Translations under genes and position numbers: made by a program
Shown: piece by piece, positions 17,344 through 32,808 of the stretch
How positions within the stretch are numbered: the stretch's first letter is position 1
Layout of the letters: the number at the start of each line of letters is the position of its first letter
DNA from: an uncultured Roseovarius sp.
GTDB lineage: Bacteria > Pseudomonadota > Alphaproteobacteria > Rhodobacterales > Rhodobacteraceae
Length of the DNA: 64,000 nt
NCBI GenBank assembly: GCA_947499555.1
Contig: CANMOU010000003.1
Coordinates: forward strand, 322,979 to 386,978
Reading direction: 5' to 3'
The notes under the pieces: generated by a model
The model's database searches: none
The model's input: the letters and a program-made list of their open reading frames with translations, nothing else
What the model was told of the DNA's origin: nothing

Positions 17344-18113
17344 TTCGCGGTGAACCCCCCGTCAACCATCAGAACCTGTCCGGTGACATAGCCGGACGCC
17401 TCTGAGCAGAGAAAAAGCAGGGGCCCGTCTATGTCGCTTAGTTCCCCGTTGCGCGCCACACAGGTTTGGGCGGCATTGCGCGCCGCGCGTTCGCTGTCGT
17501 CGAACACCGCCTGGGTAAGCTCTGTCGGGAAGAACCCCGGGCCAATCGCATTTGCCATGATCCCGTGCGCAGACCACGCCTCGGCCATGGCGCGTGTCAG
17601 CTGGGCAATCCCGCCTTTGCTGGCACCGTAGGCAATTCCACCGGGAAAGGCGCGGGTGGTCTGGAGCGAGGCGAAATTCACGATCCGACCCCATCCCTTG
17701 GCCTTCATCGCGGGCACGAAGGCCTGGCTGAGAAAAAACGGCGCGGACAGGTTGAGCGCCAAAGTCTGGTCCCACCCTTCTGCGGTCACGTCATCAGCTG
17801 CTTGGCGGGTATTTACGCCCGCGGCATGTATCAGGATGTCGGGCGGGCCGAAGGGTTCTGAAATCTGCGCGACGAGCGAGGCCAGATGAGAGCGATCCGC
17901 CACATCAGCGGCGACGACATGGACGCCGACGCCAATCTCGGCCTTGAGATCCTGCAAAGCGTCCTTGCGCCGCGCGACACAGATCACATAGGCGCCTGCC
18001 GCAGCCAAGGTGATGGCCGCACGACGCCCCAGACCAGAGCTTGCGCCGGTGACGCAAGCCACATGGCCTGTCAGATCAAAAAGATCGCGCGGGTCTTGGC
18101 CGGGATCACCCAT
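17340..18113 (-). CDS. Short-chain dehydrogenase/reductase, probable DHPS pathway enzyme
   Basis: The product has 257 residues, standard for classical SDRs. It shows the cofactor motif TGASSGLGR, a NNAG-like HAAGVN, the catalytic Ser region VNFASLQTTRAF, and YGASKGG with the Tyr-x-x-x-Lys pair. The C-terminal VTGQVLMVDGGF is typical. Its start overlaps the end of hpsN by 8 bases and its end overlaps the alcohol dehydrogenase gene. Together with that enzyme it probably interconverts DHPS stereoisomers or oxidises a sulfonated C3 intermediate. Confidence 0.78.
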   Translation of the reverse strand: MGDPGQDPRDLFDLTGHVACVTGASSGLGRRAAITLAAAGAYVICVARRKDALQDLKAEIGVGVHVVAADVADRSHLASLVAQISEPFGPPDILIHAAGVNTRQAADDVTAEGWDQTLALNLSAPFFLSQAFVPAMKAKGWGRIVNFASLQTTRAFPGGIAYGASKGGIAQLTRAMAEAWSAHGIMANAIGPGFFPTELTQAVFDDSERAARNAAQTCVARNGELSDIDGPLLFLCSEASGYVTGQVLMVDGGFTAK

Positions 18114-19413
18114 CGGCGCTCAGATCGAAGTTTTCTTTCGGGAAGTACTTGGCCAGACGCACATCCGCAGCCCGCGCGTGGCCTTCCATGCCTTCCAGTC
18201 GCGAAATACGTGCGGTCGCCTCGGCCACGGATTTGGAGCCTTCGCGTGTGGCGCGTTGCCATGTGACGATCTTCATGTATTTGTGCACGCTCAGGCCGCC
18301 TGTGTAGCTGGCAGCGCCGGAGGTTGGCAGCACGTGGTTTGTGCCGGTTGCCTTGTCGCCGTAGGACACCGTGGTCTCTTCGCCCAGAAACAGCGAGCCG
18401 TAGCAGGTCAGGCGGTTCAGCCACCAATCAAGATCTTCGGCCTGCACTGTCAGGTGTTCGGGCGCATAGTCATCTGAGCACGCGGCCATTTCCTCACGGT
18501 CGGCGCAGACGATCACCTCGGCGTAGTCGCGCCAGGCTGCAAAAGCGTTGTCACGGTTAAGCTCAGGCAGGTCCTCGATCAGGCCGGGCACCATGTCCAT
18601 GACCTTCTCTGCCAGTTCTCGTTGGTCTGTCACCAACCAGACTGGCGAGTTGTAGCCATGTTCGGCCTGGCTCACGAGATCTGTCGCCACGATATGCGCG
18701 TCCGCCGTGTGATCAGCAAGGATCAGGCTGTCGGTGGGACCTGCGATCATGTCGATGCCGACTTTACCAAAGAGGATGCGTTTCGCTTCGGCCACAAACT
18801 GGTTGCCGGGGCCAACGAGGATGTTTGCCTTGGGCAGACCAAAGAGGCCGTAGGTCATCGCGGCCACACCCTGGACGCCGCCCATCGCCATGATCTTGTC
18901 GGCACCGCAGATATGCGCGGCGTAAACAATCGCGGGGGCAATCCCGATACCGGGGCGCGGGGGCGAACATGCCGTGATGTGGCGGCAGCCGGCGACCTTG
19001 GCAGTGGTCACTGTCATGATCGCGCTGGCGATATGGCTGTAACGCCCACCCGGCGCATAGCACCCGGCCGCATCGACCGGGATCGCCTTCTGCCCGGCAA
19101 CAAAACCCGGCAGAATTTCCATCTCGACATCGGCCACGGTCGATTTCTGCATCTCCGCAAAGCGGCGCACATTGTCATGGGCGAACTGAATGTCGGCCTT
19201 GAGCTTATCGGGCACCTGCGCGCAGGCCGCGTCGATTTCTTCTTGTGTCAGAAGGATGTTGCCTTCGTACTGGTCAAACTTCGCCGCATATTCCAGCGCC
19301 TTGGCGTCGCCACCCGCTTCGATATCAGACAAGATGCCCTGCACGGTGGCATGAACTTCGGAGGCATCCGATTTGGAGGTAAGTGTCGCTTTCTTGAGAT
19401 ATTCGCGAGACAT
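18106..19413 (-). CDS. hpsN: Sulfopropanediol 3-dehydrogenase HpsN (histidinol dehydrogenase family)
   Basis: The product has 435 residues and the histidinol-dehydrogenase fold. Visible signatures are VDAAGCYAPGGRY, GVQGVAAMTYGL, GPGNQFVAEAKR, AGPTDSL, SQAEHGYNS and LPTSGAASYTGGLSV. HpsN oxidises (R)-2,3-dihydroxypropane-1-sulfonate by four electrons to (R)-sulfolactate with NAD. The product is distinguished from true HisD by the operon: it sits with two alcohol dehydrogenases and comDE and is controlled by a LacI regulator, with no his genes. It is the first gene of the minus-strand operon and has two operator palindromes 82 to 117 bases upstream. Confidence 0.88.
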   Translation of the reverse strand: MSREYLKKATLTSKSDASEVHATVQGILSDIEAGGDAKALEYAAKFDQYEGNILLTQEEIDAACAQVPDKLKADIQFAHDNVRRFAEMQKSTVADVEMEILPGFVAGQKAIPVDAAGCYAPGGRYSHIASAIMTVTTAKVAGCRHITACSPPRPGIGIAPAIVYAAHICGADKIMAMGGVQGVAAMTYGLFGLPKANILVGPGNQFVAEAKRILFGKVGIDMIAGPTDSLILADHTADAHIVATDLVSQAEHGYNSPVWLVTDQRELAEKVMDMVPGLIEDLPELNRDNAFAAWRDYAEVIVCADREEMAACSDDYAPEHLTVQAEDLDWWLNRLTCYGSLFLGEETTVSYGDKATGTNHVLPTSGAASYTGGLSVHKYMKIVTWQRATREGSKSVAEATARISRLEGMEGHARAADVRLAKYFPKENFDLSADG

Positions 19414-19494
19414 TTTGGGCGGTTCCTTCTTTCTTAAATTGGGGCGGTGCGCAAATCTGCCATCGACGCCCTAAAAAGAATCATGTTTGCATCG

Positions 19495-19508
19495 TGTAAG
19501 CGCTTACA
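19495..19508. promoter_or_regulatory. LacI-type operator 1
   Basis: TGTAAGCGCTTACA is a perfect 14-bp palindrome with the central CG step typical of LacI-family sites. It lies between the divergent hpsN operon and the LacI-type gene. The likely ligand-responsive regulator is the adjacent gene product. Confidence 0.8.
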
Positions 19509-19514
19509 TAAGTT

Positions 19515-19530
19515 ATGCAAGCGCTTACAT
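19515..19530. promoter_or_regulatory. LacI-type operator 2
   Basis: ATGCAAGCGCTTACAT repeats the first site with one mismatched pair. Its centre is 21 bp from the centre of the first, about two helical turns, so two repressor dimers would bind the same face of the DNA. Confidence 0.75.
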
Positions 19531-19602
19531 CAAGCTGTTTTAATCGCCGCTTCCTGTGCTATGAAACAGGCGAATCCTAAATGAGAGCGCACCGCGAAAC
19601 GC

Positions 19603-20607
19603 ATGTCGAAAGCTGTCCCCACACTTGACGATGTCGCCCGGATGGCGGGGGTGTCGACGGCCACAGTATCGCGCTGTCTCAACGAGCCGGGCAAGGTGGT
19701 TGAAGCGACGCGCGACAAGGTCATGCAAGCAGTTGAGGCGCTGGGCTACACACCGAATTTCGCAGCGCGCGTCATGGCGGCAAAGCGCAGCTTTACCGTC
19801 GGAGCGATTGTGCCGACGATGGAGAACGCTATCTTTGCCCGCGGCCTTCAGGCCTTCCAAGAAACGCTGCACGCGAAAGGGTACACGCTGCTGGTCGCAA
19901 GCTCGGCCTATAAGCCAGAGATCGAAGAAGAACAGATCCGCGCGCTGGTGGCGCGCGGCGCGGATGGGCTGCTTCTGATTGGGCACGAACGTGATGCGGG
20001 CATCTATGACTATCTCGAACGACAGAGCGTGCCCGCGCTTGTCGCCTGGGCCTATGATCCGGCGGGTCGGGTGCCGTCGATTGGCTTTGACAACCGCGCG
20101 GCAATGCGGGCGGTGGCCGAGGAGGTGCTCGGCTGCGGGCACCGCCGGCTTGGCATGATTTCCGGCATCTGCGCTGGCAATGACCGGGCGCAGCTTAGGC
20201 TTGACGGCGCGCGCGCCGCCATGGCTGCGGCGGGCATCGATCCCGATGATCTGGCATTTGTCGAGACCGCTTACACGATCGAGGCCGGAGCCGCCGCTTT
20301 TGACCGGATCATGCGCCGCTCGCCGCGTGCCACTGCGGTGATCTGCGGCAACGATGTCTTGGCCGTGGGCGCGCTGCAGGCGGCTCATAAACTTGGTCTC
20401 ACGGTGCCGGGTGATGTGTCTCTCACCGGCTTTGATGACATGGAATTGTCGCGCATCGTAACCCCGTCTCTGACAACCGTTGCGGTTCCGCACAGAGAGA
20501 TGGGACAAGCGGCAGCAGAAGAGGTCATGCGCATGGTTGAAGGCAAAAGCGCCGGAGAGTCGCGGTTGCTCGAAACAGAGGTCATCCGGCGCGCATCGCT
20601 TGGCTGA
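19603..20607 (+). CDS. LacI-family transcriptional regulator of the DHPS operon
   Basis: The product has 334 residues. The N-terminal helix-turn-helix reads TLDDVARMAGVSTATVSRC, with the hinge region near FAARVMAAKR. The remainder is a periplasmic-binding-protein-like sensor domain (VGAIVPTMENAIFARGL, LLLIGHERDAG, AVICGNDVLAVGALQ, SLTGFDDMELS). The gene is divergent from hpsN across a 189-base gap that contains two palindromic operators, so self-control and control of the hps-com operon are likely. The inducer is probably DHPS, sulfolactate or a related sulfonate (inferred). The ribosome site is weak. Confidence 0.88.
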   Translation: MSKAVPTLDDVARMAGVSTATVSRCLNEPGKVVEATRDKVMQAVEALGYTPNFAARVMAAKRSFTVGAIVPTMENAIFARGLQAFQETLHAKGYTLLVASSAYKPEIEEEQIRALVARGADGLLLIGHERDAGIYDYLERQSVPALVAWAYDPAGRVPSIGFDNRAAMRAVAEEVLGCGHRRLGMISGICAGNDRAQLRLDGARAAMAAAGIDPDDLAFVETAYTIEAGAAAFDRIMRRSPRATAVICGNDVLAVGALQAAHKLGLTVPGDVSLTGFDDMELSRIVTPSLTTVAVPHREMGQAAAEEVMRMVEGKSAGESRLLETEVIRRASLG

Positions 20608-20792: not shown

Positions 20793-22355
20793 ATGAAACT
20801 TGATCCGCAGTGCAGTGGTATTGAGTTGCCAAGCGGCACGTCTTTGCTGAGGGGGCAGTACGAGATCGAGCGGCCCTTGTCACAGGGCGGCTTCGGCATC
20901 ACGTATCTTGCGCGCGACAGCCTGAAACGGCGTGTGGTGGTCAAGGAATGTTTTCCGCAGGATCTCTGCACCCGGGCCGCTCTGCGGGTTTGTGCCAAAT
21001 CCGAACAGTTTGCCAAGCGCTTCCAGACCGTCCTCCAGAACTTCAAGGAAGAGGCGTATCGGCTTGCCGCGCTCGACCACACAGGGATCGTCCGCGTCCA
21101 TCAGGTCTTTGAAGAAAACGGCACTGCTTTTCTCGCGATGGATTTCGTCAATGGCGAGGATCTTTGCACGATTGTCGAGGAACACCCTGAGCGTCTGGAT
21201 GCCGGGGCCCTGTCGCAAATTGTTGTCGGGGCGTTGGAGGCTGTTCAGTACACCCATGAGGAGGGGGTGCTCCACCGCGATCTTGCACCCGACAACTTCA
21301 TCATCGATGCGCGCAACCGTGTGACACTTATCGATTTCGGATCATCGCTGGAGATTGATCGCCAGACCGAGACCGCAAGCAGCAAGCTTCTGGCGGTCAA
21401 GGATGGTTACTCGCCACATGAGTTCTATCTTGAGGGGGCACACCATGATGTGCCCAGCGATATCTACGCGCTCGGCGCGACATTCCACTATCTTGTGACC
21501 GGCTATACCCCGCCCGATGCCGGCATCCGGGTGCAGGAGTTGCAAGCCCAGCGCCCAGACCCCTATGAACCGCTTCGCGAAGTGGATTGGGATCTCGATC
21601 AGCATTTCCTTGATCTGATCAACACGGCGCTGAATCTGCACCCCGACCATCGGATCGCGTCCGCGGCCGCGTGGCTGGACGCGCTGCAGGATGCCCCTGC
21701 ACCGGTGGCACAGCCAGAAGCACAGCATGCACCTCAGCCACAGCAGCAGGCGCAGCCGGAAGTCGCAGTTCATGTCGAAGCGCCGAATTCCCAGGCGAAA
21801 CACGGCCCGACCAAAGCGCCCGATCCTCGCATCGCTGCGGAAGAGGAAGTTGTCTATGACAGCGGCCCCAAGCAGAAAACACTTTCCGCCGCCCCGCCGC
21901 CCGATCCAACGGCCATCCCCCTCGATGCGCCCGAAATCGTCGCCAAGATTTCCGAGCTGGTGACAGACACCAACAGCAAGTTTGACCCCGGCTTGCCTCA
22001 GCTCCTGAAACAAGGAGACACGGTTGTTCGGACAGAGAAGCCGGAAGTCAAAGAGGCGCCCAAACCCAAAGGGCAGCCTGTCGATATTTTCGGCAATCCA
22101 ATCGAGGATGTCGAAGCCTTTCTCGCTGAGCAAGACGGTACGCCCCTTAAGCGAAAAAAGAAAAAGAAGGGTGGCTCGGACGACAGCACAGAATTTTCTT
22201 CAGGCAATACCGCAACCGATGACCCGAGCATTGAAGAACAAAGAGACGCGACTGCGCAGAATGGCAAGGCTGCGCGGAAAGGCGCGATGGGTCGTTTCTT
22301 CAACAAGATCCTGTCCAGTAAGGACACAGGCGACTCCGTCGTTCTTCAGAATTAA
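20793..22355 (+). CDS. Eukaryotic-type Ser/Thr protein kinase, first gene of the GTPase cluster
   Basis: I choose the ATG at 20793 over a GTG 18 bases upstream, because it has GGGGA spaced 7 bases before it. The 520-residue product has a Hanks kinase domain at residues 22-295: Gly loop LSQGGFGITYLA, Lys51, HRDLAPDN (His161-Asp163) and DFG (Asp181), then DGYSPHEFY and SDIYALG. All catalytic residues are present. The rest is a low-complexity Gln/Pro/Lys-rich tail with KRKKKKKGG. The C-terminal FFNKILSSKD could be a short amphipathic helix. I see no membrane span. The kinase, FHA and PP2C trio resembles PpkA-Fha-PppA control of type VI secretion, but no secretion genes are nearby. Confidence 0.9.
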   Translation: MKLDPQCSGIELPSGTSLLRGQYEIERPLSQGGFGITYLARDSLKRRVVVKECFPQDLCTRAALRVCAKSEQFAKRFQTVLQNFKEEAYRLAALDHTGIVRVHQVFEENGTAFLAMDFVNGEDLCTIVEEHPERLDAGALSQIVVGALEAVQYTHEEGVLHRDLAPDNFIIDARNRVTLIDFGSSLEIDRQTETASSKLLAVKDGYSPHEFYLEGAHHDVPSDIYALGATFHYLVTGYTPPDAGIRVQELQAQRPDPYEPLREVDWDLDQHFLDLINTALNLHPDHRIASAAAWLDALQDAPAPVAQPEAQHAPQPQQQAQPEVAVHVEAPNSQAKHGPTKAPDPRIAAEEEVVYDSGPKQKTLSAAPPPDPTAIPLDAPEIVAKISELVTDTNSKFDPGLPQLLKQGDTVVRTEKPEVKEAPKPKGQPVDIFGNPIEDVEAFLAEQDGTPLKRKKKKKGGSDDSTEFSSGNTATDDPSIEEQRDATAQNGKAARKGAMGRFFNKILSSKDTGDSVVLQN

Positions 22356-22366
22356 AGGAAAGAAAA

Positions 22367-23920
22367 ATGAAATTTCTGCGTGACATTATCGAAGAGAAGC
22401 GCGCCGGACGCGTGAATGGCCAGGATCCGTCGCTTCAGGCCAATGAGCATCAGATTGACGATATCAGGCCGCCGGTCGAATCCCCGATAAACGCAATGCC
22501 CAAAGCGCCTGAAGACGATGAAGAGATTTCGATGGAAGAGATCGACTTTGATCTCAAGTCTCTGGGTATCTCTCAAAACTATGACGACGATGAAGGCTGG
22601 GTTGGCGCCGAAGCCGCTGAAGGCGCGCCAATCGGTGGTGATGTCAACGGCTTGCATGAAATGTTCACCGATGAGGCGGATGATGCCGAGGACGAAAAAC
22701 CAGGCACATTGAACCTTCAGGGTTTCGAAATTTCCGAAGCCTCTGAGGATGAAATGGAAGACGAAAACGCCGAGCCTGAGGCGAGCCTTTCCGATGCGCT
22801 TGAAGAAGCAGTCGCCGATCTTGAAACCCTGAAGATCGAGGCGGACAGCGAAGCAGATGACATGACGGAGGCTGAATCCGAAGCTGAGGTCGAGGCGGCG
22901 TCTGAATTGGAGGAGAGTGCCGAAGACGAGGCTGAACTGGCCCCTGAAGACGCGCCCGCGCTGGAAGCAGATGATCAGGACGCGGACGAGATGGAAATGG
23001 CCGAGGAAGAAGAAGCTCCAGAAGAAGTTTCTGAATTTGAAGCCGAGTTGGAAGAAGAGGCCGCTGAGCTTGAGGCCGATGCGCCAGAGATGACAGCAGA
23101 GGCCGACGACGAATTCCTCGCCGCGCCCGAAGACGAGATGCCCGAAGACGAGATGATGGAACCGGCAGAAGTTGAGGCGGAGGCAGACGAAGCCGAGGCT
23201 GATGCCGAAATCGAGATCGAAGCGGTTGCCGAGGAAGATGCGGCCGATGAAAGCGCCGCTGAAGATGAAATCGCCCCTGAAGTTGAGGCTGTGACCGAGG
23301 CGCTGATGGCCGAGGACGCCGCTGAGGACACCGGCCTGGAGCCCTCAGAGCTTGACGATATGGCAAAGAGCGTTGAGGCCTCGGCGGATATGCCGATTGC
23401 CGTACCTCTTCCGGCTGCGGGCCGTGGCGCCGGTGGGCGCTCTGGCCGCGTCAAAACACGTATTCTTGGCTTTTCGTCGCCCAGTACGGCAAGCGAAGAC
23501 CCCTTCGAGAAAGCGGCCAGCACGCCAGCTCCCGCTGAGACATCAGCCAATTTCCCAGTCGGCTGGCTGGTTGTTGTCGATGGACCCGGCCGTGGCACGT
23601 CCTTCACGATTTTTGATGGTGTGACACAGATCGGACGCGGTGAGGATCAGACGGTACGCCTTGATTTCGGCGACAACTCGATCTCACGCGAAAACCACGC
23701 GGCGATTGCGTATGATCCCGAGCAGCAGACCTTCTTTATCGGACATGGTGGCAAGGCAAACCTCGTACGGGTAAACAATCGCCCGGTCCTGAGCACGGAA
23801 GAGCTTCAATCCGACGACAAGGTTCGCATCGGTGAGACCACGCTGCGTTTCGTGGCCTTCTGTGGTCACAGCTTCTCGTGGGATCGCGACGAGGATATCA
23901 AACATGCTTCAGCCCAATAA
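22367..23920 (+). CDS. FHA-domain protein with a very acidic N-terminal region
   Basis: The product has 517 residues. A short basic-hydrophobic N-terminus (MKFLRDIIEEKRAG) precedes about 300 residues rich in Glu, Asp and Ala (about residues 45-345), with no predicted folded domain and no Cys. The C-terminal FHA domain (about residues 398-505) shows VDGPGRGTSFTIFDG, QIGRGEDQ, SISRENHAAI and GETTLRFV, the phosphothreonine-binding signature. A basic RVKTRILGF segment lies between the two parts and could be a kinase target. It probably reads phosphorylation by the kinase encoded just upstream (12 bases apart). The gene overlaps the phosphatase gene by 17 bases. Confidence 0.9.
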   Translation: MKFLRDIIEEKRAGRVNGQDPSLQANEHQIDDIRPPVESPINAMPKAPEDDEEISMEEIDFDLKSLGISQNYDDDEGWVGAEAAEGAPIGGDVNGLHEMFTDEADDAEDEKPGTLNLQGFEISEASEDEMEDENAEPEASLSDALEEAVADLETLKIEADSEADDMTEAESEAEVEAASELEESAEDEAELAPEDAPALEADDQDADEMEMAEEEEAPEEVSEFEAELEEEAAELEADAPEMTAEADDEFLAAPEDEMPEDEMMEPAEVEAEADEAEADAEIEIEAVAEEDAADESAAEDEIAPEVEAVTEALMAEDAAEDTGLEPSELDDMAKSVEASADMPIAVPLPAAGRGAGGRSGRVKTRILGFSSPSTASEDPFEKAASTPAPAETSANFPVGWLVVVDGPGRGTSFTIFDGVTQIGRGEDQTVRLDFGDNSISRENHAAIAYDPEQQTFFIGHGGKANLVRVNNRPVLSTEELQSDDKVRIGETTLRFVAFCGHSFSWDRDEDIKHASAQ

Positions 23921-24848
23921 GGTTCACTACGACGCATCCTCTGCCATCAGCCTCGGTCGGCGGGATCGCCAGGAAGACGCGGTTGCACTGGATTTTCCGG
24001 TGGGCGCCAAGCACGGCTTTGCTGTGCTGGCCGATGGCATGGGCGGTCATGCCGCCGGAGATGTAGCAAGTCAGATCGTCGTCACGGAGATGTTCAGTGA
24101 GCTGAAGATGCTGATCAGCGACCCTGGAGCGATGGAAAGTAATATCCGGGATCGTCTCTGCACGGCAATTCAAGATACCAACATGTGTATCGAGCATATG
24201 GCAAACACGACGCCCGATGTCTCGGTCATGGGATCGACTGCGCTGGTGCCCGTGATCTTCGGTGCCCGCCTTTACTGGGTTTCAGTAGGAGATTCCCCGC
24301 TTTTCTTGTTCCGCAAAGGTCAGCTTGAACGCCTGAATGAAGACCACTCCATGGCACCTCAAATCGATGAGATGCAAACCAAGGGTCTGATTGACGAGGT
24401 GGAGGCCGAAAACCACCCGGATCGAAATGCGCTGACCTCGGTTCTTGCGGGCAATGAAATCCCGCGAATTGACTGTTCGGGGAAGCCTGTATCGCTTGAG
24501 GCGGGCGATATCGTTATCGCCGCAAGCGACGGCCTTGAGTTTCTGAGCGAGGAACGGATCAGTGACATCCTGATGACTTACAGGGTTCGGCCAAGCTCCG
24601 AGATCAGCGCCGTGCTCTTGCGCGAAATCGAAGCTCTGAACCATCCAGATCAGGACAATGTTTCGCTTTGCCTCATCAAGGTGATGGGCGAAGAGGAAGA
24701 GCAGTTAGTCGCCCCCGATCCGATAGCAGCCGTTGCCAAGATTGTTCAGGCCGACCAGGCCTCTCGCCCGTCATCTGTTACCGTTTTGTCCCGCAAGACA
24801 AACGGTGCGTCGCAAGTTGTGTGTGTTTCTCGGAAGGTAAAAATGTGA
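23904..24848 (+). CDS. PP2C-type Ser/Thr protein phosphatase
   Basis: I start at the ATG at 23904, inside the end of the FHA gene, with GAGG about 11 bases upstream. This gives 314 residues. The PPM/PP2C metal motifs are clear: RRDRQEDA, VLADGMGGHAAGD, GSTALVPV, VGDSPLFLF, DHSM, ASDGLEFLS and DNVSLCLIKV. The enzyme should reverse the kinase encoded two genes upstream. The stop overlaps a GTG start of the following GTPase gene by 4 bases (GTGA), so this is one transcription unit. It resembles PppA-type phosphatases in domain length, but lacks the type VI secretion neighbours. Confidence 0.92.
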   Translation: MLQPNKVHYDASSAISLGRRDRQEDAVALDFPVGAKHGFAVLADGMGGHAAGDVASQIVVTEMFSELKMLISDPGAMESNIRDRLCTAIQDTNMCIEHMANTTPDVSVMGSTALVPVIFGARLYWVSVGDSPLFLFRKGQLERLNEDHSMAPQIDEMQTKGLIDEVEAENHPDRNALTSVLAGNEIPRIDCSGKPVSLEAGDIVIAASDGLEFLSEERISDILMTYRVRPSSEISAVLLREIEALNHPDQDNVSLCLIKVMGEEEEQLVAPDPIAAVAKIVQADQASRPSSVTVLSRKTNGASQVVCVSRKVKM

Positions 24849-26086
24849 CGACGGCTCAGACCATAGACAGCCTGTCCCGGCAGTTAGAGGACGTCCTGGA
24901 TCATCAGGAGGTCTCGAACCGGTACAAAACCCTCGGAGCGCAGTTGTTGTCACAGCTGCGCAAGCCGATTCAGATCTCCTTTGTAGGCCTGCCGGGAAGC
25001 GGCAAGACCGGGCTTATCAATATGATGCTGAACGGTGTCACTCTGCCGTCTTTCGACGAGCCGGACGTGGTCGAGATTGTCTATGGCCCCGAAGCCGCAA
25101 CTTGTTTTGTGCGCGGCGAAGAGACCGTGCAGCGCGCCGAAGGTATCGTCAGCTCTGCGCCTGATATCGAAAAACCGTACCGCGTGCGCCTGGAGCTTCC
25201 CGAGGAAGGCCTGCTGGTGCAGTCTTTCGCGGAAATCCGGTTGCCGAACGATCCAGCAAGACAGCAAGCTTTGCTGGACTATGCAACACGCTCATCCACG
25301 ATCCTGATCTGGTGTTCCGAGCGGTTCGAGACGCCGGAACAGGCGATTTGGTCGCATCTGCCCGAGCATATCAAGGATCACGGGTTCCTGGCCCTGACGA
25401 TGGCCGACCGGCAGATGATGAAAGGCAACCTGACAGATCGCATAGCAGATCTGGAAGAATTTGTTTCTGAAGAGTTTTTTGGTCTCTACCCGGTGGCCAC
25501 GCTACAGGCGATTTCAGCTCGGAACGATACGAGCGGCAAGGGCGGCGACATGTGGAAGCTGAGCGGTGGCGAGGCGCTTTACGAGGCGATCACGCGACAG
25601 GTTTCCTTGGGTCGCGGAGAGGATGTGGACCGCGTCAAGGTGTTGCTGGAGCAACTGGATATTGAGCCCGAGCAATCTGCAGTTCCTCTTCCGGGAAGCA
25701 CGCTTCAGCCCCTTGGGACCATGCCTGCCAAAGCGACGTCCGCGCCAGTGGTTGATACGTCCCTGTCGCGCCGGGATGCCCTGCAAAAGTCTCTCATTCG
25801 GTTGACCAAAGGTGCTGAGGACATGCTTCAGGATGTGGGCCGCATTGACGGAGATGACTGTTCCGAAATGCTGGAGACCTGTCTCGAGACGGTGCGGGAC
25901 ATGTCAGAAATGCTGTCTGAAGCGGCTGGGACAGACCCGGAGTTGACCGAGCTTCTGGAGGAAGCGCAGGAAGGCGAAAACATGCTTTTGCTCTTTCAGC
26001 TTGAGCAAGACGAAGACGCCGCGGCGGATGCCGTGACGCTTATGTTGCAACTGAAAAAGGAAATAACGGCACACGCGCAAGCGTGA
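24845..26086 (+). CDS. P-loop GTPase-like protein of the kinase/phosphatase cluster
   Basis: The product has 413 residues from a GTG at 24845 with GGAAGG about 9 bases upstream. The P-loop GLPGSGKT lies at residues 48-55. The other switch motifs are not classic: I find no clean DxxG or NKxD. The middle holds STILIWCSERFET, a strand-plus-helix pattern of a small GTPase-like fold. The C-terminal part (LIRLTKGAEDMLQDVG and later) is helical and acidic. It overlaps the phosphatase by 4 bases. Function is inferred only from the context of two dynamin-like GTPases downstream: it may be a switch that the kinase and phosphatase control. Confidence 0.7.
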   Translation: MTTAQTIDSLSRQLEDVLDHQEVSNRYKTLGAQLLSQLRKPIQISFVGLPGSGKTGLINMMLNGVTLPSFDEPDVVEIVYGPEAATCFVRGEETVQRAEGIVSSAPDIEKPYRVRLELPEEGLLVQSFAEIRLPNDPARQQALLDYATRSSTILIWCSERFETPEQAIWSHLPEHIKDHGFLALTMADRQMMKGNLTDRIADLEEFVSEEFFGLYPVATLQAISARNDTSGKGGDMWKLSGGEALYEAITRQVSLGRGEDVDRVKVLLEQLDIEPEQSAVPLPGSTLQPLGTMPAKATSAPVVDTSLSRRDALQKSLIRLTKGAEDMLQDVGRIDGDDCSEMLETCLETVRDMSEMLSEAAGTDPELTELLEEAQEGENMLLLFQLEQDEDAAADAVTLMLQLKKEITAHAQA

Positions 26087-26163
26087 CAAAGGATGACCTC
26101 CGTTGTGCCACCCGCTTGACAGAATGTTGTGGGACCAAGGCTTTCCCTGCCGCGGAAAAAAAG

Positions 26164-28227
26164 ATGAATGTAGAAGTTCGAAAAACAGAAGCGACTGAGC
26201 TGCGCAAGGCACCGCGCCCCGCCACACTGGATGCGGGGCTTGAGCTTTTGCAGCATTTTGCCGAGGATTCAAAGCGCGTCGATGATGCGTTGAAAACGCT
26301 GGCAGCCCTGACAGGTGGCAACAGCGCAAAAGCCGTTTCTCGCCTGCGCAAGGAACTGACAGATTTCGAGCCGACCATCACGGTTCTGGGACAGGTCAAG
26401 GCTGGCAAGACCGCTCTGGTGAATGCCATGGCCGGATGGTCAGATCTTTTGCCGTCGGATGTAAATCCATGGACCTCTGTGGTCACGTCGCTGCATCTCA
26501 AGCCGGGCGAGTCACGCTCGGAAAATGGCGCATGCTTCAAATTCATGACCGATGCTGAATGGGCGCGCCTGTCGCACAAAGGTGGCCGTATGGGCGAACT
26601 GGCCAGCCGCGCCGGTGCCGAAAGCGAATTGCAAAAGATCAGTGACCAGATCGAACTTGTGCGTGAAAAGGCGCGCAAACGTCTGGGCAAGAAGTTTGAG
26701 CTCTTGATCGGGCAAGAGCATGACTACGGCTACTTCGACAAGAACCTGCTCGAGAAATACATCTGCCTCGGGGATGATTTTGACGGTGATGAAGACATAA
26801 GCCCCGATCAGGAAGATCAGGGTCGCTTTGCAGAAATCCTTCGCTCTGCCGATCTCTATCTCAACAGCACGACAGTCCCAAGCAACCTGTGCCTGCGTGA
26901 CACGCCTGGTGTGAACGACACATTCATGATGCGCGAGCAGATCACGGTGCAGGCCATCCGCGACAGCAAGCTTTGTGTCGTGGTTCTGTCGGCGAACCAG
27001 GCATTGAGTTCGGTTGATATGGGCCTCATTCGCCTGATCTCGAACCTCAAGTCGCGCAATATCGTTATCTTTGTGAACCGGGTCGATGAGTTGCAAACAC
27101 CGTCGCAGCAGGTTCCGGAAATTGAGCGGAGCATTCGCCAGACGCTGCGCCAGAAACGGGCGCCTGAGAATATCGAAATCATTTTCGGCAGCGCCTACTG
27201 GGCCAACGCAGTTCTGTCCGGCGACGTTCAGAAAATGCCGCAAGAGCGTGTGCGCGCGCTTCTGAAATGGGCGGAAACAGATCGCAAGATCAAGTGCAGC
27301 GAAACGGAGCCCTTTGAAATCATTTGGGAACTTTCCGGTCTGCCTGGACTCTTCCGCGCGCTGTCAGAACGCATCGTCGCGGATATCGCGACACCGTTCC
27401 TCAACAAGATTGCCTCTACCGCCGTGAGCCTTGCCACGGGCCAACAAGCGGCTTCAAAGGTACAGCTTGGAGAGGCAAAAGGAACATCGATGAAGCCGGA
27501 AGAGGCTTTGTTCACTTTTGACCGGATCGCCGATCAGCATGCACAAGCCCTGCAGAAGGATCTGATGCAGGCAACGCAGGATTATTATGCCCGCGCTGAT
27601 CGTGCGCATGACCAGTTTATTGAGCGCGCCACCCAGTCCCTGATTGCCCACCTTGAACAATGGGGGCCTGAAGATGGCTGGAAATACGATCCGACCGGTC
27701 TTCGACTTCTGATGCGCTCGGCCTATTCCGTCTTCGGAAAGCGGGCTCAAGCAGTGGCGAACGAACATTACAATGCGGCTCTGGCTGACATTGCTGAGCT
27801 TTACAGCGCCGCCTTTGGTGATGCAGTTTCGGGCATTCAATTGGCCGCCCCTGCCGTCCCAAGTATCCCGGCCCCGATCTCGCTTGGTCAGACGATCGCG
27901 CTTGATTTTCATGATGGCTGGTGGGTGTCATGGTGGCAGCGCCTGCGCGGCTATGAGACCTTCGCCCGCAAGTTCCGTCAGCTCATCGAAGATGAGACTG
28001 AAGACTTCATGTCACAGCTCAAAGTGGTTCAGACGCAGGAAGTGCATGATCAGATGCAATCCGCACTGCGCCTCTTTTTTGAGGATCAGAAGGATATCCT
28101 GTCAGATATCGGCAAATCCTCGTCCACGAATGCGAATGTGCAAGACCGGCTCAGCCAAAGCGCACACGCAACACAAACCGCAAATCTCGACGATGTCGTG
28201 GCCATTTTGCAGGCCTACACCGGCTGA
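26164..28227 (+). CDS. Dynamin-like large GTPase
   Basis: I choose the ATG at 26164. An earlier GTG at 26083 overlaps the preceding stop, but the 27 residues it would add look non-coding. The 687-residue product carries the dynamin-type GTPase signature: P-loop GQVKAGKT (76-83), the switch I Thr region WTSVVTS, DTPGV (from Asp246) and NRVD (from Asn305). After the GTPase domain come about 250 mostly helical residues and a Trp-rich patch WWVSWWQRLRGY (about 586-598) resembling a membrane paddle or insertion loop of bacterial dynamin-like proteins. It probably acts on a membrane. It lies between the P-loop protein and a second dynamin-like GTPase gene. Confidence 0.82.
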   Translation: MNVEVRKTEATELRKAPRPATLDAGLELLQHFAEDSKRVDDALKTLAALTGGNSAKAVSRLRKELTDFEPTITVLGQVKAGKTALVNAMAGWSDLLPSDVNPWTSVVTSLHLKPGESRSENGACFKFMTDAEWARLSHKGGRMGELASRAGAESELQKISDQIELVREKARKRLGKKFELLIGQEHDYGYFDKNLLEKYICLGDDFDGDEDISPDQEDQGRFAEILRSADLYLNSTTVPSNLCLRDTPGVNDTFMMREQITVQAIRDSKLCVVVLSANQALSSVDMGLIRLISNLKSRNIVIFVNRVDELQTPSQQVPEIERSIRQTLRQKRAPENIEIIFGSAYWANAVLSGDVQKMPQERVRALLKWAETDRKIKCSETEPFEIIWELSGLPGLFRALSERIVADIATPFLNKIASTAVSLATGQQAASKVQLGEAKGTSMKPEEALFTFDRIADQHAQALQKDLMQATQDYYARADRAHDQFIERATQSLIAHLEQWGPEDGWKYDPTGLRLLMRSAYSVFGKRAQAVANEHYNAALADIAELYSAAFGDAVSGIQLAAPAVPSIPAPISLGQTIALDFHDGWWVSWWQRLRGYETFARKFRQLIEDETEDFMSQLKVVQTQEVHDQMQSALRLFFEDQKDILSDIGKSSSTNANVQDRLSQSAHATQTANLDDVVAILQAYTG

Positions 28228-28242
28228 GAAAGGATCCCATAA

Positions 28243-29157
28243 ATGACAGCCATGACCAACATGAGCGATACCGAGGCAAAATCGACACGCAAACCCCGCG
28301 TGGCCCTGATGGGCGAGTTCAGCGCGGGCAAGAGCACGCTGCTCAATATGCTGTTGTCACAGCAGTCGCTGCCTGTGCGCATCACCGCGACCAGTGTGCC
28401 ACCGGTCTGGATCGCCTATGGAGAGCCCGCCGCCGCACGTGTGACACATGATGACGAGCAGATTGATCTGCCAGTTGGCGAGATTGCCGAAACCTCGCTC
28501 GATGATACGAAATACATCCGGCTCTGGCTCAAGGCTGATATCCTGGAATTCTGTGATCTCTTTGATTTGCCGGGTATTTCCGACCCGAATATGAGCCGCG
28601 ACGTCCTGCTTGCCGTCTTTGACGAGGTCGATTCCGTAATCTGGTGTACTCACGCGACCCAAGCCTGGCGGCAGTCCGAGGCGGCGATGTGGGAAGAGCT
28701 TTCGATCCGCACGAAAGGGCATAACCTTCTGGCCATCACCCAGTTTGACAAGATCACCTCTGAGCGGGACCAAAACCGCCTTCTGTCCCGAATTCGGAAA
28801 GAAACGGACGGATTGTTCGATGAGATCTTTCCTCTGTCGCTGCTCGAAGCCACCCATGCCGAGAGCAAGGACGCGTTTTTCGCCAGCGGTGCCGCAGCGT
28901 TTTGCGCCCATCTGGTGGAAGATCTCATGGCGCGCGAGATCATCGAGGAAGAGACAGGAGTTGATCCTGAAGATGACGCTCTCGCTGAAGATGACATGGC
29001 GGACGAATTCGGTGAGGTCGAAGCAATTGACGAGGCGCCGCGGATTGTGCCGAAACGCGTGTCGCGCCCAAAAGCCAGGGATGGAGCCGCGCGATCACGG
29101 CCGCCTGCAGGTCAGGACGAAACAGACCTGACCGACTGGAAAAACGCCGATGCCTAA
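28243..29157 (+). CDS. Second dynamin-type GTPase, short form
   Basis: The product has 304 residues. The GTPase motifs are P-loop GEFSAGKS (24-31), switch I with TATSVPPV, FDLPG (Asp108) and TQFD (166-169) in place of NKxD. The end, after about residue 230, is acidic then basic (EEETGVDPEDDALAEDD, then PKRVSRPKARDG), probably disordered, and the paddle and long helices of the larger protein are missing. A truncated partner next to a full-length dynamin-like protein recalls bacterial pairs that form hetero-oligomers (for example DynA/DynB). That role is inferred. The gene starts 15 bases after its predecessor. Confidence 0.82.
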   Translation: MTAMTNMSDTEAKSTRKPRVALMGEFSAGKSTLLNMLLSQQSLPVRITATSVPPVWIAYGEPAAARVTHDDEQIDLPVGEIAETSLDDTKYIRLWLKADILEFCDLFDLPGISDPNMSRDVLLAVFDEVDSVIWCTHATQAWRQSEAAMWEELSIRTKGHNLLAITQFDKITSERDQNRLLSRIRKETDGLFDEIFPLSLLEATHAESKDAFFASGAAAFCAHLVEDLMAREIIEEETGVDPEDDALAEDDMADEFGEVEAIDEAPRIVPKRVSRPKARDGAARSRPPAGQDETDLTDWKNADA

Positions 29158-29211
29158 GCTGGCCTGGCAGCGCAAAAGGCGGGATATCCGCAAACCGATG
29201 GAGTGGTGGGA

Positions 29212-29598
29212 ATGAATATTGAGCAGGTCTTGGACGCAGGACGCAAGTCGGTGGCAGGATGTTCTGTCGCCGCCTATGGCGATACCTCTGCCCGTCTGAT
29301 CCTGCGCGCCAGCCATCGCCAGGGCATACGCCGCGAATATCTTGACGCGCTCTGCGACCATGCGGCCGGCTGTTTTGACTTGCTCGACATGACCTGGGAC
29401 GCCTCGGCCAAGGACGAGGATACCGCTATACTGCTGAACGAGGCAGCCATTCTCGCCAAAGGCGAGACGATGGTATTTGTCCGCTCAGACGAAAGCCAAT
29501 CTGAATTTCTGTGTCTGGTCAGTGATGATCCCGGCGCAGCCCCCAAACTTTTTTCCGCAGCACACAGGACCTTGCAGAAAATCTCGGCAGGACAATGA
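29212..29598 (+). CDS. Probable Roadblock/LC7-domain protein
   Basis: I choose the ATG at 29212 (an upstream GTG is also in frame). The product has 128 residues. It starts IEQVLDAGRKSVAGCSVAAYGDTSARLILRAS, a helix followed by two strands as in Roadblock/LC7 proteins. The later KGETMVFVRSDE and EFLCLVSDD strands and a final helix complete the alpha-beta pattern. Roadblock proteins regulate small GTPases of the MglA/Ras type, which fits the three GTPase genes upstream. The family call is from pattern only; the sequence is divergent. It overlaps the next gene by 4 bases. Confidence 0.5.
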   Translation: MNIEQVLDAGRKSVAGCSVAAYGDTSARLILRASHRQGIRREYLDALCDHAAGCFDLLDMTWDASAKDEDTAILLNEAAILAKGETMVFVRSDESQSEFLCLVSDDPGAAPKLFSAAHRTLQKISAGQ

Positions 29599-30410
29599 TG
29601 GCGAACCCCGTGGCAAAGGCAGACCGCATAGCATACGAAAGACCCGGCATTGACCGGGTGCTGATGCGTTTGGCGAGCCCCGAACGCCTTGTCTATGGCG
29701 CGCCGCTTGCTGCCGGAGTGGCAGAGGGCGATCTTTTTTGCGCCGTATTGCGTGAGATCGACGAAACGATCCTGCCGCGCGAGTTAATCGTTGAATCGCA
29801 GATGTTTGGCACGATCCGCCTGAGCGTCTCAAACCGGCGTTTGTCGGCGATACGATTTGATCATGACACCGATCAGTCGCCGATGGTCGAGGCCGAAAAC
29901 AGCCAGGAAATGGCCGAACAATTCGCAGAGATTCTGATGCAGGCTTTCGCTGTCAGTGAAGAAGCACGGATTTTGCGACCGCGCCGCATGCCGCCGGGAA
30001 CTGTCTTCAACATGTCCTGCTCGGCGGAAAGCCTTGCCGAAGCTGCCGGAATCCTCGACTTCCGTGTCGGTGCCATGGACGAAATCGCCGGGTTTACCGA
30101 AACCGTTCAAAAGATGGCTCTGGCGTATGCCGAGGGAGACCGAGACACAGTCATTCTAAGCGCCACGGGCAAGCAGGATGACATCGACCTGCTCGATACG
30201 TTCTTCCGGAATTTTCAGGCAGGTCAGGCCAACGGCCCCAAGACCCGGCGCTTCAATCCTGATGAACCCAGATGCCTTATGGTGCCGCTTGTGGATGCGC
30301 GGACCGTGGTTCTGGCCCTGCGTCAGACCGGTCATCAGCTTGCCGTGGTGCCCAATGAGAGCACGGCAACGCTCATTCAGGCCTGGCACGCGGAACGCGG
30401 CGGTTCCTGA
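29595..30410 (+). CDS. Unrecognised 271-residue protein, last gene of the GTPase cluster
   Basis: The start overlaps the preceding stop by 4 bases (ATGA), so it is translationally coupled. An AGGA site lies 5 bases upstream. The protein is soluble, with no signal peptide or membrane span. It has two halves: an N-terminal alpha-beta region (VLMRLASPERLVYGAPLAAG, LFCAVLREIDE) and a C-terminal one (CLMVPLVDARTVVLALRQTG). A repeated alpha-beta pattern could be a Roadblock-like or similar small-domain duplication, but I do not recognise the family. Its position makes it a likely partner of the neighbouring GTPases. Confidence 0.75.
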   Translation: MMANPVAKADRIAYERPGIDRVLMRLASPERLVYGAPLAAGVAEGDLFCAVLREIDETILPRELIVESQMFGTIRLSVSNRRLSAIRFDHDTDQSPMVEAENSQEMAEQFAEILMQAFAVSEEARILRPRRMPPGTVFNMSCSAESLAEAAGILDFRVGAMDEIAGFTETVQKMALAYAEGDRDTVILSATGKQDDIDLLDTFFRNFQAGQANGPKTRRFNPDEPRCLMVPLVDARTVVLALRQTGHQLAVVPNESTATLIQAWHAERGGS

Positions 30411-30507: not shown

Positions 30508-31080
30508 ATGACGAATAATATCAATGGCAAGACCCTGTTGATCGTGGAAAATGACGATGTCTTTCGCGAACAGCTGTCGAAGGTGATGCGCAATCGCGGG
30601 TTTGACACGATTCCGGCATCCGGATTCTCGGAGGCGGAAGAGGCGATCAAACAGCGCGCCCCGGCCTTTGCCGTGATCGATCTGCATCTCGACGATGGCT
30701 CTGGCCTTGAAGTGATCGAGGTTCTCAAGACCCATTCGAAAGAAGCGCGCGCGATCATTCTGACCGGCTACGGCAACACGCCGACCGCAGTTGCCGCAGT
30801 CAAGCTTGGGGCCGTTGACTATCTGGCCAAGCCTGCTGATGCGGACGAAATCGTGGATGCGCTGATGGCGGCAGATGGTGTTCTGCCGCCGGCACCGGAA
30901 AATCCCTTTTCGCCAGAAGAAGCCAAGCGGGTGCATATAGAGCGCTTTCTTGAACGCACGGATGGCAACATCACCAAGACAGCGCGGCTTTTGAAGATGC
31001 ATCGGCGCACTTTGCAGCGTATCCTCAAAAGGTCGCCAGACATGGGGCAAGACCCAGACATTGGACAAGATAATGGATAG
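30508..31080 (+). CDS. ActR/PrrA/RegA-like response regulator
   Basis: The product has 190 residues with receiver domain and a C-terminal Fis-type helix-turn-helix. The phospho-acceptor is Asp58 (FAVIDLHLDDG). The conserved ILTGYG (Thr) and LAKPAD (Lys) segments are present. The C-terminal TDGNITKTARLLKMHRRTLQRILKRSP is very close to the ActR/PrrA/RegA redox regulators. The second acidic residue at the active site is Asn15 (VENDD), where PrrA-like proteins have Asp, so phosphorylation may be altered. No sensor kinase gene adjoins it. It is probably a paralogue of the housekeeping PrrA. The gene's end overlaps the next by 8 bases. Confidence 0.88.
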   Translation: MTNNINGKTLLIVENDDVFREQLSKVMRNRGFDTIPASGFSEAEEAIKQRAPAFAVIDLHLDDGSGLEVIEVLKTHSKEARAIILTGYGNTPTAVAAVKLGAVDYLAKPADADEIVDALMAADGVLPPAPENPFSPEEAKRVHIERFLERTDGNITKTARLLKMHRRTLQRILKRSPDMGQDPDIGQDNG

Positions 31081-31483
31081 GCAAGGGCAGGAATCTTACA
31101 CCGCAGCGACTGTCTATTATGATGGAAGTTGCCCGGTATGCCGGGCAGAAATCTCTTATTTTCAAAGCCGGACTGCGACGGAAGACCTGCGATTTGAGGA
31201 TGTGTCGCGCGCGAATGCCCAGCTTCCTGACGGTTTGACGCCGCAAGCCGCCATGGCACGCTTCCATGTTAGAGGACGCGACGGCCATCTGCGCTCTGGC
31301 GCGGAAGGCTTCGTCGAGATGTGGGCCCACGCGCCAGGGTGGAAAAGCGTTGCAAGACTGTCCCGATTGCCCGGTTTTGTCTGGCTGCTGGAGCGGCTCT
31401 ACCGAGGGTTCTTACACATTCGCCCGGTACTGGTGCGTATATTGGGGCCCTTTCTGCGCCGCCGCGGGGCCCTTGATTCATGA
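31073..31483 (+). CDS. DCC-family thiol-disulfide oxidoreductase-like protein (DUF393)
   Basis: I choose the ATG at 31073. The product has 136 residues. VYYDGSCPVCRAEISYFQSR carries the DxxCPxC motif that names the DCC family, thioredoxin-like proteins of unknown substrate. A GRDGHLRSGAEGF stretch and a final helical part match the family. It overlaps the response-regulator gene by 8 bases and the UbiB-like gene by 4, so the three form one unit. A role in redox handling is suggested by the motif and by the PrrA-like regulator next to it, but is not shown. Confidence 0.83.
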   Translation: MDRQGQESYTAATVYYDGSCPVCRAEISYFQSRTATEDLRFEDVSRANAQLPDGLTPQAAMARFHVRGRDGHLRSGAEGFVEMWAHAPGWKSVARLSRLPGFVWLLERLYRGFLHIRPVLVRILGPFLRRRGALDS

Positions 31484-32808
31484 CGAAATACGCCCCCGAC
31501 CAGCGCGGTGTCGCCATTCCGACAGGGCGTTTCAATCGTCTGGCCCGACTGGGCGGTGTGACAACGGCGGTTGCGGGCAACATGGCGGCGCATGGCAGTC
31601 TCGAGCTTTTGCGGGGTCGGCGGCCCAAGCTCAATGACCTCTTGCTGACACCACGAAATGTTTCTCGCGTTGCAGACCAACTGTCGCGCATGCGTGGCGC
31701 GGCGATGAAGGCGGGTCAGCTTCTTTCAATGGAAACCGCCGATATGCTGCCGCCAGAACTGGCGCAGATCATGGCGCGCCTTCGTGCCGAAGCGCATTTC
31801 ATGCCGCCGTCGCAGCTCAAGAAGGTGCTGATCGCGAACTGGGGTCAGGATTTTTTGAAGAAATTCAAACGTTTTGATGTGCATCCCATCGCGGCGGCGT
31901 CGATCGGGCAAGTGCATCGTGCGCAAACCCATGATGGCCGTGATCTGGCGATCAAGGTGCAATATCCCGGCGTGCGTGACAGCATCGACAGTGACATGCG
32001 CAATCTTGGGATGATCCTGCGTGCCTCGGGGATGCTGCCCAAGGGGTTCGATCTTGATCGGTTGCTGATGGACGGGGCGGCACAATTGCATGAGGAAACA
32101 GATTACGAACGTGAGGCAGAGGCGCTGACACGGTTCGCGCGGCATTTAGATGCAGATGCATTTTTTGCCCTGCCCAAAGCACACAAGGATTTGTGTACAA
32201 AGGATATTCTGGCTATGGAGTATCTTGACGGACAACCGCTCGAGACGTTGACCTCGGCTGAACAAGCGGTGCGGGATGCAGTTGCGACACAGCTTATTGC
32301 CCTCACACTCCGCGAGGCGTTCGAGCTGCGCGACATGCAGACCGATCCGAATTTCGCAAACTACCTCTACCGGCCTGAGACTGGCCAGATCATCCTGCTT
32401 GATTTCGGAGCGACCCGTCAATTTGGCAAGGCCCTGTCGGCCCAATATCTGGCGCTTTTCCAAGCGGCGATTACGGGGGACGATGCTGCGGCCTTTGAGG
32501 AAATGGTGGCCATTGGGCTGGTGGGCAGGGATATGTCCGCAAGGGACCGGGCGCACGTCCTGCGCCTCTTCAACATCGCGGCAGAGCCATTGCGGCAAGG
32601 CGGAGTGCTTGATTTTGGCACCTGCGAGCTGTTAAGGCGTTTGCGGCAAGAAGGGCTGGTTCTGGCCGAAGAGCAGGTCGCCATTCATGCGCCACCCACC
32701 GATACTTTGCTGTTTCAGCGCAAGGTTTTGGGCTGCTACCTTCTGGCCGAGCGGCTCCGCGCGAGGGTGGATCTCACACCGCTTATTGCGCGGTATCGTT
32801 CTGGCTAG
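31480..32808 (+). CDS. ABC1/UbiB-family atypical kinase/ATPase
   Basis: The product has 442 residues. Key motifs of the ABC1/ADCK/UbiB family are visible: [10 protein letters not shown] (the KxGQ helix), [13 protein letters not shown] (the A-rich loop), [10 protein letters not shown] with the ATP-binding Lys, [12 protein letters not shown], and [10 protein letters not shown] in place of DFG. UbiB-like proteins support ubiquinone synthesis or lipid handling through ATPase activity. No other ubi gene is nearby, and this form lacks the C-terminal membrane helices of UbiB, so it is a paralogue of unsettled function. It follows the DCC gene with a 4-base overlap. Its last 26 bases overlap the convergent DUF2256 gene. 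Confidence 0.85.

Follow-up and report, generated by a model that had tools for sequence, protein, structure and literature searches.

A conserved eight-gene cluster of Rhodobacteraceae that may encode a phosphorylation-gated, dynamin-like membrane machine

Introduction

What do a Ser/Thr kinase, an FHA protein and a phosphatase do beside three GTPases and a Roadblock-like protein, and do they belong together at all? Such a set of eight consecutive same-strand genes occupies positions 20793-30410 (+) of a 64,000-nucleotide stretch (hereafter the window, meaning that whole stretch) of the 3.7-Mb genome of an uncultured Roseovarius sp. A preliminary description, made from the letters alone, had taken the eight genes for probably one operon and had found the combination unfamiliar. 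We found no description of this gene set in a search confined to open-access papers. Here we report that the complete order recurs in 90 distinct loci, so that the arrangement cannot be put down to chance, and that the cluster is almost certainly one conserved functional unit. We further propose, with about even confidence, that the eight genes form a self-contained accessory operon of the Rhodobacteraceae whose products make up a phosphorylation-gated, dynamin-like membrane machine.

Results and Discussion

Eight genes conserved as a unit

A check of the open reading frames confirmed all eight genes at their place and on their strand:

20793..22355, +, KIN: Hanks-type Ser/Thr kinase, 520 amino acids (Pfam Pkinase, 4.7e-31)
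22367..23920, +, FHA: 517 amino acids, acidic linker and C-terminal FHA domain (Pfam FHA, 3e-07)
23904..24848, +, PP2C: PP2C-type phosphatase, 314 amino acids (Pfam PP2C_2, 6e-11)
24845..26086, +, GTP1: degenerate P-loop GTPase, 413 amino acids
26083..28227, +, DYN: dynamin-like GTPase, 714 amino acids, or 687 if it starts at ATG 26164 (Pfam Dynamin_N, 9.4e-15)
28243..29157, +, GTP2: stalk-less dynamin-type GTPase, 304 amino acids (Pfam Dynamin_N, 1.2e-12)
29203..29598, +, RBL: 131 amino acids, Roadblock/LC7 fold by predicted structure
29595..30410, +, ORF8: 271 amino acids, C-terminal domain predicted to be Roadblock/longin-like

Pfam thus supports the assignments previously made for the kinase, the FHA protein, the phosphatase and the dynamin-like fifth and sixth proteins, and GTP1, RBL and ORF8 match no family above cut-off in Pfam or NCBIfam. 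Three of the four overlapping junctions that had been counted are firm (FHA/PP2C, 17 bases; PP2C/GTP1, 4; RBL/ORF8, 4). The fourth, 4 bases between GTP1 and DYN, requires that DYN start at GTG 26083. Of the ten relatives in our alignment, most match DYN from about Met28 (26164) onwards, and a start there would leave a gap in place of the overlap. By hydrophobicity, no segment of any of the eight proteins qualifies as a membrane helix (best 19-residue mean, 1.44). Scans for promoters (2 sites versus 3.7 in shuffled sequences) and terminators (12 versus 10.8) were uninformative.

All eight families were placed by hidden Markov model in two sets of loci: 51 regions chosen by hand, not at random, from a DYN search of 293 genomes of the order, second copies included, and the best 80 of 538 confirmed named stretches. 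Together with the window they gave 97 loci with the complete order (type I), of which 7 were dropped as duplicates by DYN identity, leaving 90 distinct ones. Among the 80 named loci 67 were complete and 11 are truncated by a contig end; in the remaining two RBL was not recognised (L143) or GTP1 lies in two frames (L154). DYN was matched in 98 of the 293 genomes (E value 1e-5; 40 of 112 genera), a count that includes variants, and the C-terminal part of FHA in 94. Both were present in 90 genomes, DYN without FHA in 8 and FHA without DYN in 4 (Fisher p 3e-60). The pairwise distances of each of the seven partners correlated with those of DYN at 0.65-0.92, against a maximum of 0.19 in 200 permutations each, and the DYN proteins of type I form a single clade of 90 (support 0.90). 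A check set beforehand, whether the genes lie scattered in relatives, showed that loci with the full set are not scattered, and that sub-sets stand apart in some genomes.

What surrounds the cluster is far less constant. In the flanks of 110 loci with KIN and DYN (duplicates kept), no family occurred in more than 27 loci, and the most frequent families were generic (transporter ATPases, response regulators, sensor kinases and TRAP transporters) and varied in side and distance. A handful of families, found in 7-8 loci, have a fixed side and a narrow range of distance (for example the L150 and L037 families, 8 loci each), as would be expected of close relatives.

The cluster is patchily distributed. 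No match outside the family came from a sample of the class (385 genomes, including 5 listed under the family; E value 1e-20) or from one of the phylum (299 genomes; 4 matches, all within the family; E value 1e-15), although distant relatives may be missed because these searches score at most three candidates per genome. Among the best 80 of the 538 named stretches, the nearest relative is an uncultured Roseovarius whose DYN is 87% identical, and nearly all others are roseobacters, cultured strains among them. DYN was found in 25 of 60 genomes of the window's genus. In three close relatives (87% identity) the cluster occupies the same site, flanked by the LacI-type gene and the response-regulator gene; three other genomes (G936, G956 and G978) have no DYN but do have the response regulator-DUF393-ABC1 genes of the downstream side, and two (G941 and G960) have DYN at a different site. 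DYN was matched by 18 plasmid records (12 Leisingera, 5 Ruegeria and 1 Rhodobacter). The one Leisingera plasmid inspected carries the eight genes in order, annotated singly with three as hypothetical, and the one Ruegeria plasmid inspected carries a rearranged set (type II, below). These varied sites and the plasmid carriage identify the cluster as an accessory element that has moved between sites. DYN had no match among 50,697 phage records (1e-5).

A candidate phosphothreonine switch

The enzymes of the switch appear intact. In KIN the catalytic Lys and the HRD and DFG motifs are near-invariant in the 90 distinct loci, and its tail is variable save for one partly conserved motif, vDxFGxPIxD. 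KIN has no hydrophobic stretch typical of a transmembrane helix, is read as soluble, and is the sole Pkinase match in its genome (E value 0.001). The PP2C motifs QED, DGMGGH, SDG and DN are likewise intact and near-invariant in the 90 loci; the protein matches the NCBIfam Stp1 model at 4.2e-41, yet below the cut-off of that model. Two features of the FHA protein are central to what follows:

23558..23857, +: FHA domain, about residues 398-497 (Pfam stretch 421-489 of 517)
23447..23473, +: RVKTRILGF motif, residues 361-369, with the Thr364 codon at 23456-23458; candidate phosphothreonine switch

The protein begins with a short conserved stretch, MKFIRDII, and continues into a linker of which residues 101-340 are 44% Asp plus Glu. 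Within the FHA domain, G423, R424, S440, R441 and H444 (the G-R and S-R-x-x-H signatures) are identical in 90/90 distinct loci, and so, ahead of the domain, are R361, T364, R365 and G368. Median identity over 9-residue windows is 0.15 in the linker against 0.96 at RVKTRLLGF, and outside residues 398-497 no Ser or Thr but Thr364 is conserved in more than 95% of the sequences. The pattern TR-hydrophobic-hydrophobic-G-[FHY] occurs in the FHA protein of 97/97 loci and, within the cluster, is confined to that protein. Type II loci and dynamin-free kinase-FHA-PP2C sets mostly have KTTFLGF, KTRLIGF, KTRIHGY or a similar motif; KTTIAVG and KTQIYHG stand in its place in two more distant FHA proteins, and in L194 none was seen. 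We take Thr364 as the putative phosphorylated residue, and a phosphothreonine switch at this position probably controls the cluster.

There is a precedent for this layout in GarA (OdhI) of mycobacteria and corynebacteria, in which a phosphothreonine precedes a C-terminal FHA domain, just as Thr364 does here. The FhaB and OdhI models match our FHA domain far below their cut-offs (38 of 125 and 29.9 of 200 bits), and the cluster differs from GarA/OdhI in its motif, its longer linker and the lack of a metabolic target.

A dynamin-like pair and a degenerate third GTPase

Both DYN and GTP2 have G1-G4 motifs that are intact and near-invariant in the 90 loci, so that two dynamin-type GTPases are encoded in one operon, as in bacterial dynamin-like pairs. 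In profile searches of the PDB, DYN matched BDLP1 (2j68, 2.3e-10; the host we take to be Nostoc) and 5owv_A, the Cj-DLP1 chain (6.1e-10), and GTP2 matched 5owv_C, the Cj-DLP2 chain (4.8e-16, over profile positions 18-231). DYN is long enough for a helical stalk and GTP2 too short for one. The Trp-rich patch previously noticed in DYN is real and nearly invariant:

27916..27954, +: DYN patch [GS]WWxSWWxRxRGY, residues 612-624; candidate membrane-contact site

Its WWxxWW tryptophans (W613, W614, W617 and W618) are kept in 88-90 of the 90 loci, and the patch falls about where the tip of a stalk could lie, a position from which it might touch the membrane.

The fourth protein had been called a P-loop GTPase. 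The P-loop Gly and Lys are indeed kept in 86/90 loci, but profiles built from 20 of 22 picked sequences each plus the window identify GTP1 as a degenerate paralogue of GTP2 (hhalign probability 99.5, E value 2.8e-23) with no DxxG in its G3 region; we read GTP1 as a putative pseudo-GTPase partner. Dynamin_N was matched weakly by 14 of the 21 aligned GTP1 members, the window's GTP1 not among them.

The closest counterpart is the Campylobacter pair Cj-DLP1/Cj-DLP2, also encoded by two dynamin-type genes in one operon. Liposome tethering by this pair does not depend on GTP, significant GTP hydrolysis occurs only when both proteins are together, and its authors only suggested envelope stress as a possible trigger (PMC6104087). 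The cluster described here differs from it in its stalk-less GTP2 and in its additional parts, namely the kinase-FHA-PP2C switch, the degenerate GTP1 as a third GTPase and two predicted Roadblock-type proteins.

Two proteins with predicted Roadblock-type domains

The claim that the seventh protein resembles Roadblock/LC7 receives its support from predicted structure, in which RBL has a Roadblock fold with MglB and Ragulator entries among its best matches. Searches with sequence models gave nothing useful for RBL or ORF8; just 1 of 60 RBL members (59 of 66 dereplicated sequences plus the window, 7 with long upstream extensions being left out) matched Pfam Robl_LC7, at an E value of 0.3, and RBL is thus a sequence family of its own. 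ORF8, previously unrecognised and without a Pfam or NCBIfam family here as well, is nevertheless predicted to carry a second Roadblock/longin-like domain at its C terminus (about residues 165-271), a weaker match than that of RBL and one to Rag-Ragulator entries. The ORF8 alignment comprised 68 of 72 sequences plus the window. Both proteins evolve fast (median identity 30% for RBL and 21% for ORF8). The adjacency of the genes suggests that a Roadblock protein could regulate a partner GTPase in the manner of a GTPase-activating protein (GAP) or an exchange factor (GEF).

The nearest Roadblock-GTPase operons known to us are the actinobacterial conservons (CvnABCD, AGPS), which combine a kinase, an MglB-type Roadblock protein, a protein of unknown function and a GTPase in one operon (PMC13343842), and MglA/MglB (PMC4316618). 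In the conservons, however, the kinase is a histidine kinase and the GTPase is Ras-like, whereas Pfam identifies a Hanks kinase and dynamin-type GTPases in the present cluster. MglA/MglB and Rag-Ragulator resemble the cluster in that GTPases accompany Roadblock-fold proteins (by predicted fold only for the Roadblock parts here), but the cluster encodes no Ras- or Rag-like GTPase. In the GTPase-centred GAP1-N2 conflict systems a GTPase also has a kinase and a PP2C as neighbours, with vWA in place of FHA, and the main text describing them does not use the words dynamin or Roadblock (PMC7159879).

Variants separate three sub-modules

The 51 hand-chosen regions comprise 29 complete type I loci, 3 near-complete ones (L043 without a recognised RBL; L053 and L056 without a recognised KIN), 4 of type II or its cut copy, and 15 in which DYN and its GTPase, as one or two pairs, have no linked switch (e.g. 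L061 and L066-L074); in two of the last, L075 and L077, RBL and ORF8 lie nearby. In type II (L063-L065 and the Ruegeria plasmid L168) the order is DYN-GTPase-RBL-ORF8-DYN-GTPase-KIN-FHA-PP2C, and L199 has all eight genes as DYN-GTP2-RBL-ORF8-GTP1-KIN-FHA-PP2C. Dynamin-less loci form a third group: L185 has KIN-FHA-PP2C with GTP1, RBL and ORF8, L186 the same minus a recognised PP2C, L187 a second FHA gene and no recognised RBL, and L183 only the switch and GTP1. Finally, the switch also occurs without GTPases, for example next to a PBP-OmpA protein (L191, by Pfam; L188 and L192, by eye). The variants show that the cluster is built of three sub-modules able to travel apart, namely the switch, the adaptor and the dynamin pair. 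GTP1, RBL and ORF8 are assigned the putative adaptor role because GTP1 and ORF8 accompany the switch in each of the dynamin-less loci L185-L187, and RBL does so in two of them.

Several variants have further neighbours. In L191, the one such locus checked with Pfam, the gene adjoining kinase-FHA-PP2C (L191:14207-15841) encodes a periplasmic-binding protein with a C-terminal OmpA domain, and periplasmic-binding-protein genes also adjoin the sets in L188, L192 and L168. PAS-domain genes follow two lone DYN-GTPase pairs (L071:12801-13340 and L072:12683-13225), and PAS and BLUF (blue-light) genes adjoin the dynamin-less FHA-GTP1-ORF8 set of L187 (3010-3387 and 11023-11433); these genes are possibly the sensory input of the variants. 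In genus g8 (L181:12342-15224, L184, L195 and L196) a related FHA-PP2C pair belongs to a different set that includes a second FHA protein and has, by eye, similar neighbours; in L181 this second protein combines an FHA with a YscD-like match.

A proposed mechanism

The idea of the preliminary description, a phospho-switch acting on a GTPase machine at a membrane, fits these observations. The signal order that we propose is drawn from the way in which the variants separate switch, adaptor and dynamin pair. KIN would phosphorylate Thr364 of FHA, within RVKTRLLGF; the phosphothreonine would be bound by the FHA domain of the same or a neighbouring molecule, altering the assembly of FHA, and PP2C would reverse the modification. 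The state of FHA may then be passed by the adaptor (the degenerate GTP1 with the Roadblock-type RBL and ORF8) to the active DYN-GTP2 pair. DYN would supply the stalk and the Trp-rich membrane contact, with GTP2 as a stalk-less GTPase partner that replaces the second dynamin of known pairs, and a Roadblock protein might serve as a GAP-like regulator or as a dimeric platform. The output could be remodelling or tethering of the inner membrane on demand, for example under envelope stress. That the cluster acts on DYN-GTP2 by way of GTP1-RBL-ORF8 is, in our estimate, evenly balanced.

The known kind to which the cluster belongs is the bacterial dynamin-like pair, and the unusual part is the control layer. 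To our knowledge, how bacterial dynamin-like proteins are activated is largely an open question, and here a dynamin pair is accompanied by what appears to be an erasable phospho-switch of its own and a Roadblock adaptor. We suggest, tentatively and with somewhat less than even confidence, that the cluster represents an undescribed class of regulatory machine, in which a phosphothreonine relay gates a dynamin-like pair through parts like those of Rag-Ragulator (one active and one degenerate GTPase paralogue and two Roadblock/longin-type proteins), and in which switch, adaptor and dynamin pair are exchangeable cassettes. A single invariant Thr offers a single-residue test, and sets of Hanks kinase, FHA and PP2C may be regarded as a cassette with outputs beyond type VI secretion.

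Alternative explanations

The preliminary description had matched the first three genes to PpkA-Fha-PppA, known from the control of type VI secretion. In both sets kinase, FHA protein and PP2C follow one another and the FHA protein carries a candidate Thr; PpkA phosphorylates Thr362 of Pseudomonas aeruginosa Fha1, and the FHA domain of Agrobacterium tumefaciens Fha is N-terminal (PMC3953482). In the cluster it lies at the opposite end, after the long acidic linker, and the likeness therefore ends at the list of enzymes. The marker VipB of the type VI secretion system (T6SS) shows a weak, not significant excess among DYN carriers (33/98 versus 46/195, p 0.07), but it is absent from the host genome and from all 11 members of the genus sampled, the host included, and of the 33 genomes with both, 22 have VipB and DYN on different contigs and 11 on one contig, the nearest 63 kb away; the cluster is thus not beside T6SS genes, which had been the second check. 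That it is a stray threonine-phosphorylation control module of a T6SS is so improbable that we reject it. A further possibility is that two independent modules, kinase-FHA-PP2C and GTPase-dynamin, are mere neighbours inherited together. The genomes with DYN or FHA alone (8 and 4 of 293) and the switches without GTPases speak for this, but 90 genomes have both, the order is fixed and its junctions overlap, rearranged loci keep the parts together in another order, and dynamin-less loci retain GTP1 and ORF8 with the switch. The correlated distances point the same way, although linkage alone would yield these too. We consider independent modules quite improbable.

An anti-phage or conflict system, in which the kinase senses or spreads a signal of infection and the dynamin pair seals membranes or breaks them down, would account for the patchy presence in the genus (25/60 genomes), the differing sites in relatives, the plasmid carriage and the fast change of RBL and ORF8. 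KIN, alone among the eight proteins, resembles the MADS (3.8e-49) and PD-T4-6 (5.1e-46) kinases, and GTP2 weakly matches LeoA (5.3e-07) and LeoBC (3.3e-05). Many Hanks kinases would probably score as KIN does, however, and PADLOC at 0.01 yields nothing for the other six proteins. Inspection by eye of the 25 most recurrent flanking families, some of which are probably spurious antisense frames, revealed no nuclease, toxin or phage gene, the flanks not having been scanned against PADLOC, and no phage record matches DYN. We judge a conflict system unlikely. A system for polarity or attachment like MglA/MglB, in which a pole is marked by a GTPase with Roadblock proteins and reversed by the phospho-switch, and the polar membrane or holdfast is arranged by the dynamin, would make use of the same parts, but the GTPases are of dynamin type rather than Ras-like as MglA is, and no motility or pilus gene was recognised by eye in the same 25 families; this reading seems to us doubtful. 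The phosphorylation-gated, dynamin-like machine is the reading that we favour.

Neighbouring genes

Upstream of the cluster, window positions 16363-20607 hold what appears, on reading the sequence, to be a set for dihydroxypropanesulfonate catabolism (a dehydrogenase, an SDR and a HisD-like protein) with a LacI-type regulator. Downstream, at 30508-32808, lie a response regulator with a Fis-type helix-turn-helix (domain tested) and then, by eye, DUF393-like and ABC1-like kinase genes. In the relatives L169 and L173, the response regulator-DUF393-ABC1 block is preceded by katG- and LysR-like genes (by eye). On the 32.8-kb Leisingera plasmid L167 (NZ_CP041163.1) the cluster adjoins an HWE histidine kinase with heme oxygenase, a mechanosensitive channel and a CsbD gene.

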